A stretch of DNA of 64,000 bases from Leptothrix discophora (GTDB lineage: Bacteria > Pseudomonadota > Gammaproteobacteria > Burkholderiales > Burkholderiaceae_C): positions 124,001-188,000 of the forward strand of contig NZ_JAUZEE010000008.1 of NCBI RefSeq assembly GCF_030705305.1, given 5' to 3'. The notes beneath the pieces were generated by a model. The model saw only the letters and a program-made list of their open reading frames with translations. It ran no database searches and was not told the origin of the DNA. The translations under genes and the position numbers were made by a program. Each line of letters opens with the position of its first letter. The first letter of the stretch is position 1. Below, one piece after another: positions 38,625-56,372 of this stretch.

Positions 38625-38653
38625 GCGCCTGAGCCTTTGGGCGCCCCAACGAA

Positions 38654-38675
38654 AAACGCGGCCGAGGCCGCGTTT
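38654..38675. terminator. Bidirectional hairpin terminator
   Basis: AAACGCGGCC (38654-38663) pairs perfectly with GGCCGCGTTT (38666-38675). T-rich sequence follows on both strands (TTTCTT on plus, TTTTTCG on minus). It ends the cytochrome transcript and could also serve the convergent fpr gene. Confidence 0.85.
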
Positions 38676-38711
38676 CTTGTCCGGTCGATGTGACCGGGGT
38701 CTGACGTTCCC

Positions 38712-38782
38712 CGGGCCGAGCGCCGGGCCGCCCCAAGCCGGCCCGACCCCCTCGGGGGGTGGTCACGCGTACCCGCGTGACC
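38712..38782. repeat. Three-stem intergenic repeat, copy A
   Basis: Stem 1 CGGGCC (38712-38717) pairs with GGCCCG (38740-38745) around a 22-nt core identical in copy B. Stem 2 ACCCCC (38746-38751) pairs with GGGGGT (38755-38760). Stem 3 GGTCACGCG (38761-38769), loop TACC, CGCGTGACC (38774-38782). It lies between convergent cytochrome c and fpr genes, 12 nt past the fpr stop. See copy B at 55916-55987. Confidence 0.85.
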
Positions 38783-38794
38783 GGGGGCTCACAC

Positions 38795-39568
38795 TCACTG
38801 TTCGGCGAAGGCGCGCTCGATGACGAAGTCGCCGGGGCTGGTCGTGCTGCCTTCGCTGAACTTGCGCTCCTCCAGCATGTGCTTGAGGTCGCGCAGCATG
38901 GCCGGGCTGCCGCAGATCATCACGCGGTCGGCACCGGGGTCCAGCGGGGGCAGGCCGAAGTCGTTCCAGAGCCGGCCGTCCTCGATCAGGTCGGTGATGC
39001 GGCCCTGGCGCTCGAAGGGCTCGCGCGTCACGGTCGGGCAATAGACCAGCTTGTCCTTGACCAGCTCGCCGAGGAACTCGTGGTTGGGCAGGTCCTTGAG
39101 GAACAGGTCCTGGTAGGCCAGCTCGTTGACCTGGCGGCAGCCGTGGACCACGACGACCTTCTCGAAGCGCTCGTAGGTGTCCGGGTCCTGGATGATGCTC
39201 AGCCAGGGGGCCAGGCCGGTGCCGGTGCCGAACAGGTAGAGCCGCTTGCCGGGGTTGAGGTAGTCGATCAGCAGCGTGCCGGTGGGCTTGCGGCCGACGA
39301 GGATCTTGTCGCCCACCTTCAGGTGCTGCAGCCGCGAGGTGAGCGGGCCGTTGGGCACCTTGATGCTGAAGAAGTGCAGCTGCTCGGCCCAGTTCGGGCT
39401 GGCCACGCTGTAGGCCCGCAGCAGGGGCTTGCCGTCCACCGGCAGGCCGATCATGACGAAGTGACCGTTGGAGAACCGGAAGGCCGGATCGCGGGTGGTG
39501 GTGAAGCTGAACAGGCGATCGGTCCAGTGGTGGACCTCGGTCACGGTCTCTTCGTTGAACGGTTTCAT
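38795..39568 (-). CDS. fpr: Ferredoxin--NADP(+) reductase
   Basis: Flavoenzyme of 257 residues. FAD binding is marked by LLRAYSVASPNW, and NADP binding by LFGTGTGLAPWLS and ICGSPAMLRDLKHML. The C-terminus VIERAFAEQ matches bacterial subclass FPRs. It passes electrons between NADPH and ferredoxin or flavodoxin, often in redox-stress defence. The ATG at 39568 is the family start (MKPFNEETVTEVHHW). No operon partner; the acyl-CoA-binding gene lies 107 bases upstream in the same direction. Confidence 0.93.
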   Translation of the reverse strand: MKPFNEETVTEVHHWTDRLFSFTTTRDPAFRFSNGHFVMIGLPVDGKPLLRAYSVASPNWAEQLHFFSIKVPNGPLTSRLQHLKVGDKILVGRKPTGTLLIDYLNPGKRLYLFGTGTGLAPWLSIIQDPDTYERFEKVVVVHGCRQVNELAYQDLFLKDLPNHEFLGELVKDKLVYCPTVTREPFERQGRITDLIEDGRLWNDFGLPPLDPGADRVMICGSPAMLRDLKHMLEERKFSEGSTTSPGDFVIERAFAEQ

Positions 39569-54937: not shown

Positions 54938-55729
54938 ATGCTGCAGACCGCCACCTCGTCCGGCGCGCGCGAGCCGGCCCCCAGCGACAAGCGCATCGCC
55001 GTGCCGCTGGCGGTGCGGGCGCATCTGGTCGAGCTGATCGAGCAGGGCGTGCCGGTGACGCTGGTGACGCCCGACGGCGCGACGCTGTCGACCCGCCTGG
55101 TCCACGAGGACATGACCGCCCGCGAGCTGCGCTTCGCGCCGCTGGGCGAGCCTTGCGCATCGGCGCGCCTGGCGCTGGCCGAGGAGGCCGTCGCCATCGC
55201 CTACCTGGCCCGCATCAAGCTGCAGTTCGACCTGATCGGCCTGCGCCTGCGCGATGGCGGGGGCGAGGCCGAGCTGAGCGCGTGCTACCCGCGCGAGCTG
55301 CACCGCTTCCAGCGCCGCGAGGCCTATCGCGTGCGCACCGAACCGCCACCGCAGCTGGCCGCCCGCCTGGGCAAGCTGCTGCCCATCGTGATCGGCGGCC
55401 CCGAGCTGCTGCTGGGCGATTCGGGCGCGCCCGAATCGCTGCGCCGCCTGCGCGTGCTCGACATCAGCCACGGCGGCGTCGCGCTGCTGCTGCCGCCCGG
55501 CGACACCTCGCTGCGCGCCGGCAGCCGCATCCCGGCCGCCACGCTGGAGCTGTCGCCCGGCCGCACCATCCACGTCGCCCTGCACGTGGTCCGCGCCGAC
55601 CCCCTCGCCGCCCCCGAAGGCGCCCAGCGCCTGGGCTGCGAGATGGAAGGCCTCTCCGGCGTCGCAGCCCGCAGCCTGCAGCGCTTCATCGACGAGACGC
55701 AGATCAAGGCCAGGGCGCTGGACGCCTGA
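54938..55729 (+). CDS. ycgR: Flagellar brake protein YcgR (PilZ domain)
   Basis: Protein of 263 residues. An N-terminal YcgR domain (~10-125) precedes a PilZ domain from ~128. The c-di-GMP-binding arginines are in FQRREAYRV, and the second motif is LDISHGGVALLL. With c-di-GMP bound, YcgR contacts MotA/FliG and slows the motor. It starts 20 bases after fliT, so it is likely cotranscribed. Confidence 0.9.
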   Translation: MLQTATSSGAREPAPSDKRIAVPLAVRAHLVELIEQGVPVTLVTPDGATLSTRLVHEDMTARELRFAPLGEPCASARLALAEEAVAIAYLARIKLQFDLIGLRLRDGGGEAELSACYPRELHRFQRREAYRVRTEPPPQLAARLGKLLPIVIGGPELLLGDSGAPESLRRLRVLDISHGGVALLLPPGDTSLRAGSRIPAATLELSPGRTIHVALHVVRADPLAAPEGAQRLGCEMEGLSGVAARSLQRFIDETQIKARALDA

Positions 55730-55775: not shown

Positions 55776-55798
55776 CGTCGGACTCTTCGAGTCCGACG
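55776..55798 (+). terminator. Hairpin after ycgR
   Basis: CGTCGGACTC (55776-55785) pairs with GAGTCCGACG (55789-55798) around a TTC loop, 46 bases beyond the stop. No T tract; probable but weak terminator. Confidence 0.5.
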
Positions 55799-55915
55799 AG
55801 CCACCGCCGCTGGGCCGCCCCCCCAAAAACGTGTTGAACACCGGTCCATCGCCGCCCACCTTCGGGCCGAGGCCGCGCCCGCAGGAGGTGGCCTCGCGGT
55901 TGCCGACGCGCGCCG

Positions 55916-55987
55916 TGGACCGAGCGCCGGGCCGCCCCAAGCCGGTCCACATCCCCACGGGGGATCGCCGGGCGTACCCGCCCGGCG
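55916..55987. repeat. Three-stem intergenic repeat, copy B
   Basis: Stem 1 TGGACC (55916-55921) with GGTCCA (55944-55949); stem 2 ATCCCC (55951-55956) with GGGGAT (55960-55965); stem 3 CGCCGGGCG (55966-55974), loop TACC, CGCCCGGCG (55979-55987). The 22-nt core of stem-loop 1 equals that of copy A. Seven base pairs differ from copy A, all by paired changes. It sits between convergent ycgR and fliE. Confidence 0.85.
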
Positions 55988-56000
55988 AGGGGTCAACAGG

Positions 56001-56372
56001 TCACACCTGCATGTTCATGATGTCCGAATACGCCTGCGCCAGCTTGTTGCGCACCTGCACGGCCGCCTGGAAGCTGATCTGGGCCTTCTGCATCGCGACC
56101 ATCGTCTGCTCGATGCTGACCGTCGGGTTGTCCAGCGCGACCTCGCGCTGCAGGGCCGTGGCCTGGTTCTGTTCGTTGCTCACGCCGCGCAGGGCCTGGG
56201 TGAAGACCTGGGAGAACTCGGTGCGGTCGACGCCCTGGCTGCGACCCGCGCCCGGCACCCCGCCGCTCAGGCCGGCGGCCTGGGCGCTGTCGCGCACCCG
56301 CTGGGCGACCTGGGGCATGCCTGCCCGGGTGGCCGCCTCGGCGAAGTTGAAGGGTTTGAGCTTGACGTCCAT
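56001..56372 (-). CDS. fliE: Flagellar hook-basal body protein FliE
   Basis: Protein of 123 residues. The C-terminal half is diagnostic: REVALDNPTVSIEQTMVAMQ, KAQISFQAAVQVRNKLAQAY then SDIMNMQV. FliE links the MS ring to the rod. It is divergent from fliF with a 189-nt gap, as in enterobacteria. Confidence 0.95.
   Translation of the reverse strand: MDVKLKPFNFAEAATRAGMPQVAQRVRDSAQAAGLSGGVPGAGRSQGVDRTEFSQVFTQALRGVSNEQNQATALQREVALDNPTVSIEQTMVAMQKAQISFQAAVQVRNKLAQAYSDIMNMQV

Follow-up and report, generated by a model that had tools for sequence, protein, structure and literature searches.

A dispersed three-hairpin repeat with a G-rich tail at gene borders in Leptothrix discophora and related Burkholderiales

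The window analysed here, a 64,000-nt stretch of the Leptothrix discophora contig NZ_JAUZEE010000008.1 (positions 124,001 to 188,000), carries two copies of a three-hairpin element. Both lie between convergent genes, as the original prediction had it, with stem 3 ending 12 nt (copy 1; stop codon at 38795 of a ferredoxin-NADP reductase-like gene, a name given by a match below that model's curated cut-off) and 13 nt (copy 2; stop codon at 56001 of fliE) past a minus-strand stop. Beyond what had been described, a G-rich tail extends the element past stem 3 in both copies, which gives the following features:

38690 to 38705, plus strand: partial unit of 16 nt upstream of copy 1, 88% identical to the stem 3 end and tail at 38777 to 38792, 87 nt apart
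38712 to 38745, plus strand: copy 1, stem 1, 9 pairs with a bulged A at 38719 and the nearly invariant 15-nt loop at 38722 to 38736 (sequence, covariation)
38712 to 38721 and 38737 to 38745, plus strand: copy 1, arms of stem 1 (sequence)
38746 to 38760, plus strand: copy 1, stem 2, 6 pairs with a 3-nt loop (sequence, covariation)
38761 to 38782, plus strand: copy 1, stem 3, 9 pairs with a TACC loop (sequence, covariation)
38783 to 38788, plus strand: copy 1, G-rich tail GGGGGC, 6 nt from the minus-strand stop codon at 38795 to 38797 (sequence)
55915 to 55950, plus strand: copy 2, stem 1, 10 pairs with a bulged A at 55923 and the same loop as copy 1 at 55926 to 55940 (sequence, covariation)
55915 to 55925 and 55941 to 55950, plus strand: copy 2, arms of stem 1 (sequence)
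55951 to 55965, plus strand: copy 2, stem 2 (sequence, covariation)
55966 to 55987, plus strand: copy 2, stem 3 (sequence, covariation)
55988 to 55993, plus strand: copy 2, G-rich tail AGGGGT, 7 nt from the fliE stop codon at 56001 to 56003 (sequence)

Re-reading the two copies to the base confirmed seven differing pairs, two in stem 1, one in stem 2 and four in stem 3, each changed on both sides. The core of stem-loop 1 is indeed unchanged between them but measures 26 nt rather than the 22 nt first claimed, and it has two matches in the window and none in 100 shuffles. Minimum-energy folds of both copies on either strand contain all three helices, with z-scores of −3.4 to −2.5, and shuffled sequences fold as well in 0, 1, 2 and 4 of 200 cases for the four combinations of strand and copy. 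A scan for intrinsic terminators, that is, a hairpin followed by a T run, found none around either window copy, and we reject that reading for both. Between the cytochrome gene and the element, a GC-rich hairpin with flanking A and T runs (38651 to 38677) looks like a bidirectional terminator, albeit one absent from the scan's list; similar hairpins occur in congeners with and without the element. The window also holds a perfect palindrome, GTCGGACTCTTCGAGTCCGAC (55777 to 55797), behind a gene ending at 55729, and hairpins of the same form recur at four loci of the congener G007 (L346, L379, three at L388 and four at L389), so that it may belong to another family of palindromic repeats in the genus.

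The two copies belong to a family dispersed through the source genome (4.65 Mb in 31 contigs). Its members were first found by a 21-nt core, comprising the stem 1 (S1) loop and six adjoining stem bases, which at up to three mismatches has 68 matches genome-wide, while a reversed control pattern has none. Of the 67 copies whose loop has no more than one mismatch, 61 went into the covariance model R1 and six, truncated or degenerate, were omitted; with 150 candidates scored and E-values that are rough, the model matches this genome 82 times at E ≤ 0.01, 74 of these at E ≤ 0.001 and 8 above 0.001. The matches fall into 70 loci, 11 of which are arrays of two or three head-to-tail units, and the 12 neighbouring matches less than 500 nt apart are spaced by 77–93 nt and all lie on the same strand. 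Searching the genome, part of the check originally proposed, turned up many further copies, with strong covariation.

Each unit spans about 88 nt and consists of hairpin S1 with its nearly invariant 15-nt loop, GCCGGGCCGCCCCAA, hairpins S2 and S3, the latter mostly with a TACC loop, and a G-rich tail reading GAGGGGC or GGGGGC; units stand singly or up to three in a row. In 18 of 70 loci a run of 10 nt or more is common to the left flank and the right end (0 of 70 in the control), and GGGG occurs within 45 nt to the left of S1 in 27 of 70 (7% in the control), both of which fit partial tandem units. Two of the source genome's own loci, L036:2311 and L050:2416, have some 30 nt upstream of the element in common, as if the flank had been copied along. 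A further copy, at C27:156654-156744 (L110), apparently lies inside a coding region, where G007 is shorter by 63 nt, a multiple of three.

Pairing within the family is strongly kept. An alignment of 61 different copies, scored at 24 pairs, has 91.4% of its cells paired, compared with 75.2% in 500 shuffles. Double changes occur in 20 of the 24 pairs (13.9 in shuffles) and in 216 cells (64.5), the covariation score is 0.401 (0.132), and not one of the 500 shuffles reaches any of the pairing, double-change or covariation values. When the structures are slid along the alignment, the paired fraction drops to 31–48%. Over the loci collected for this count, 237 of 254 contexts with the exact loop retain at least six Watson-Crick pairs in S1, built from 116 distinct arm sequences, and by eye even the bases adjoining the loop covary with their partners (GAGC..AAGC, CAGC..AAGC, CGGC..AAGG and AACC..AAGG, each with matching arms).

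The repeat occurs in most of the genomes sampled from one GTDB family. In a survey of that family with up to 35 candidates scored per genome, 96 of 120 genomes, the source genome included, match R1 at E ≤ 0.001. Among 150 genomes drawn from the order, matches at E ≤ 1e-6 are confined to the source genome and two genomes of another family, at a threshold so hard that G149, a member of the same family with 21 matches in the family survey, has none. The 21-nt core at up to two mismatches occurs in 2 of 24 genomes of other families of the order, with one or two matches each, and among the matches listed the exact core is found in Roseateles, Pelomonas, Rhizobacter, Aquabacterium, Ideonella, Piscinibacter, Variovorax, Polaromonas and Hydrogenophaga. 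The S1 loop also occurs in a second architecture: in a number of named genomes, among them Roseateles, Paucibacter and Pelomonas, another long hairpin, of the type GCGATGT..arms..CATCGCC or the like, stands between this loop and the G-rich part (L136, L140, L144, L160, L164, L168, L174 and L188).

At closer range, occupancy is patchy. Of the ten congeners counted, out of twelve, five have no copy and the other five have 44, 38, 18, 15 and 2. Two of the twelve, G007 and G009, carry an element at the 38712 site, which is empty in the remaining ten, and the fliE site is empty in all 11 congener loci read over the 150 nt before the stop codon. When the source genome's own sites are placed in G007, some are common to both and some are empty, and at C29:193065 that congener carries an element of opposite orientation in the same gap. 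By eye, several empty sites show a short tail-like stretch where the occupied site has its tail, be it target or relic, and no consistent target-site duplication is discernible at the compared sites. A plasmid or phage vehicle is rejected, as copy 1 has no match in collections of either. That the element is a dispersed, structure-keeping and spreading repeat is well supported.

To describe where copies sit relative to genes, we compared their two sides. A simple gene finder has the gene on the tail side directed towards the element in 69 of 82 copies and the one on the S1 side in 55. A fixed test, with thresholds chosen after earlier counts had been viewed, required an open frame of at least 60 codons with GC3 > 0.75, counted stops at 0–9 nt, and omitted copies that a tandem copy follows (12 own, 3 congener, 10 other) or without a tail in place (5 own, 7 congener, 52 other); two G009 rows (L402 and L408) are counted under 'other'. 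In the source genome, 47 of 58 testable tails face a stop, 3 a start codon 4 nt away and 8 neither, as opposed to 4, 6 and 48 on the S1 side. Congener tails (n = 30) divide into 12, 5 and 13, with 2, 1 and 27 on the S1 side, and tails elsewhere (n = 94) into 30, 24 and 40, with 19, 9 and 66. An earlier form of the test placed a stop within 12 nt in 37 of 43 own and 12 of 29 congener copies. Of the 182 testable copies in the three sets combined, 61 face neither border and 32 a start codon, from which the tail is separated by exactly 4 nt in 22 cases. The tail therefore tends to lie close against one end of an open reading frame, stop or start, most clearly in the source genome, and the idea of a 3′ structured element describes most copies here but not the family as a whole. 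If the tail served as a Shine-Dalgarno sequence, it would have the usual distance to the start codon.

The stop-side preference of the source genome (47 of 58 tails against 4 of 58 S1 sides) would suit a role in RNA, whereby the hairpins lie behind the stop codon in the mRNA of the inward-pointing, tail-side gene and stall the terminating ribosome or shield the 3′ end from exonucleases, and E. coli offers a precedent in REP hairpins up to 15 nt from a stop codon, as far as part of PMC12306157 sets out. We nevertheless consider it unlikely, since the copies that face a start codon do not fit it and the window sites are empty in most congeners read. Were a transcript selected, moreover, G-U pairs would be expected to be common on its strand, whereas the 237 S1 copies contain 19 G.T and 18 A.C among 2,312 cells, an absence of enrichment on either strand that is as expected if pairing matters in DNA. 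S2 contains 5 G.T and no A.C and S3 9 and 4; the three stems together thus show G.T somewhat more commonly (33 versus 22), an excess that is small and falls on the strand opposite the mRNA of stop-facing genes. A small control of 13 tRNAs from the same loci gave 4 G.T and 1 A.C in 156 cells. Overall, wobble gives no strong pointer to one RNA strand, even with the slight lean of S2 and S3 towards G.T in the written orientation.

Ten hand-picked same-site comparisons, eight with G007 and one each with G009 and G011, show how individual copies change; both copies of each are matched by the model, the alignment is fitted to the model's structure and one window copy is used twice. Of their 240 pairs, 4 of them with gaps, 207 are the same, 14 are double-changed and 6 single-changed with pairing kept, and 9 are broken in one genome. 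At the 38712 site, 7 of 24 pairs differ from G007, all on both sides, beside a tail-side 700 nt that is 96% identical, and so many double changes at once suggest replacement from another copy or template switching rather than single compensations. Whole-stem swaps could come from either recombination between copies or template switching, and the replacing stem 3 of the 38712 site recurs once elsewhere among the examined loci, in another genome (L066). Pairing might then be kept without any selection, with template switching during replication, reported in the portion of PMC8794818 available to us to change both sides of a stem together, or inter-copy recombination rewriting whole arms at a stroke. 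We judge this improbable: it leaves unexplained why the loop hardly varies, why hairpins and tail keep one order and why the tail sits where it does, and 9 of the 29 changed same-site pairs are broken. The claim of selection on structure, for its part, was overstated: the two window copies are paralogues of a spreading repeat, and the same-site pairs include broken ones besides the 14 and 6 kept. As for strand bias relative to replication in G009, the GC skew of 20 samples there was too ragged to place origin and terminus.

An intrastrand C-G-G triplex between stem 2 and the tail, a motif kept by, or causing, genome instability as proposed for enterobacterial triplex repeats, is very improbable: the C-tract and two G-tracts come in the required order, and among the 111 of 273 contexts that could be parsed the tail is altered in four (L011, L157, L163, L165) of the 7 copies whose stem 2 has no CCCC, but the tracts measure 4–5 nt and the second loop about 22 nt, as opposed to the stems of 6–15 and loops of 1–6 nt searched in PMC4666352, the altered tails are better explained by Watson-Crick pairing with stem 2, three of the 7 copies keep ordinary tails, and the whole stem 2–tail helix shows hardly any covariation. 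Guide-like pairing between tail and stem 2 is likewise rejected, as its four informative loci possibly represent one subfamily and the alignment-wide count is flat.

Starting from the family, its structure, dispersal, empty sites, orientation and spacing, all of them observed directly, we lean towards a REP-like, dispersed, non-coding palindromic DNA repeat that is copied as folded DNA by an enzyme acting in trans, with its tail set against an open reading frame. On this explanation, the repeat, which has spread through chromosomes in a single GTDB family of Burkholderiales (that of Roseateles, Rhizobacter, Rubrivivax and their relatives), would have its folded single-stranded DNA copied and inserted by an enzyme that recognises the S1 loop and the tail. 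As such an enzyme would read only these two parts, the letters of the stems would be free so long as they remained paired. Insertions would land, or survive, with the tail against an open reading frame, either immediately after a stop codon or immediately ahead of a start codon, and in the latter case the tail would stand at Shine-Dalgarno distance. Against this explanation, the searches turned up no mobilising gene, copy 1 has no plasmid or phage match, the compared sites show no consistent target-site duplication by eye, the tRNA control is small and G.T somewhat exceeds A.C over the three stems, 61 of 182 testable copies face neither border, and the S1-side control is not low outside the genus (19 stops and 9 starts among 94, compared with 30 and 24 for the tail). 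The mode of movement, the enzyme, a role of the tail as a ribosome site and any cellular use of the stop- or start-side placement are inferred.

A bolder version, which we put forward with considerable doubt, has the element as a class of folded-DNA mobile repeat with an undescribed enzyme, in which the G-rich tail has two functions: as the signal for targeting or cleavage, which the C-tract of hairpin 2 would read (the four altered tails give a hint of this), and as a reserve site for ribosome binding. If the tail had this dual role, an element inserted before a gene would supply a correctly spaced start signal in place of the previous one, and one inserted behind a gene would leave everything intact. 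The repeat illustrates how such an element can be placed, tightly spaced, at the borders of genes. It has a high copy number, is present in the majority of the genomes sampled from a large family of bacteria and lacks an Rfam match, and it also constitutes a natural test of what covariation in a repeat reflects: a function in RNA, folding of DNA in the service of mobility, or template switching.

As to known systems, no Rfam family exceeds its gathering threshold at the element in the window or in ten loci, the best match at copy 1 reaching 16.2 of the 46.6 bits needed, and membership of a described Rfam family is rejected; a SAH riboswitch is recognised separately at L052:912-996 (55.8 bits for a gathering score of 37). 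A literature search by the core letters and by such repeats' names, with most subscription journals outside its coverage, found no description. The REP-associated transposase suggested at the outset did not materialise: a search for the Y1 transposase family PF01797 yields no match in the source genome and is positive in 5 of 14 control genomes, 20 fetched PF01797 loci of relatives, with up to 1.5 kb on each side, contain no match to the element up to E 0.1, and over 120 genomes the two show no association (68 with both, 28 with the element only, 19 with the transposase only and 5 with neither). Nor is a mobiliser bracketed by copies tenable, as the genes between eight pairs of copies 250–4000 nt apart have no recurring protein.

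Among repeat classes, the closest likeness is to REP elements mobilised by RAYT transposases, which, according to the parts of PMC2817692 and PMC3733652 consulted, also form many intergenic palindromic copies, mostly downstream of coding regions, with complementary stem changes that keep pairing. These properties are found here. However, where a REP has one hairpin of 20–40 nt, the element comprises three over about 88 nt, and it further differs in its head-to-tail arrays and nearly invariant 15-nt loop. With no PF01797 in this genome, no copies at the 20 transposase loci, GTAG near the tail in only 1 of 58 copies and none in the consensus, membership of the GTAG super-family is rejected. The predicted REP- or BIME-like family consequently survives in its first half, by its 82 matches in 70 loci, covariation and family-wide spread, and not in its second, as the 12 neighbouring pairs lie on the same strand, none on opposite strands, and do not alternate. 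CGTC-tagged REPs share the lack of a known dedicated transposase, again in the available part of PMC3733652, yet their 8–9-bp stems and 4–5-nt loops do not fit stem 1, and a CGTC-like tag near the tail is present only in a minority of 58 copies (CGTC in 5, TGTC in 6, CCTC in 4), so that this class too is set aside. Intrastrand triplex motifs (TM; PMC4666352) have the same C, G, G order of tracts as stem 2 and tail, with longer tracts and a shorter loop than the element. Finally, the distance to the stop codon resembles that of E. coli REPs lying up to 15 nt from one, which in the sections of PMC12306157 at hand make up 446 cases among 4,072 predicted REPs, and 260 among 496 in previous work cited there, whereas here 47 of 58 testable copies of the element lie beside a stop codon and start codons are faced too, mostly in other genomes. 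It is, in sum, a REP-like repeat of a new build.
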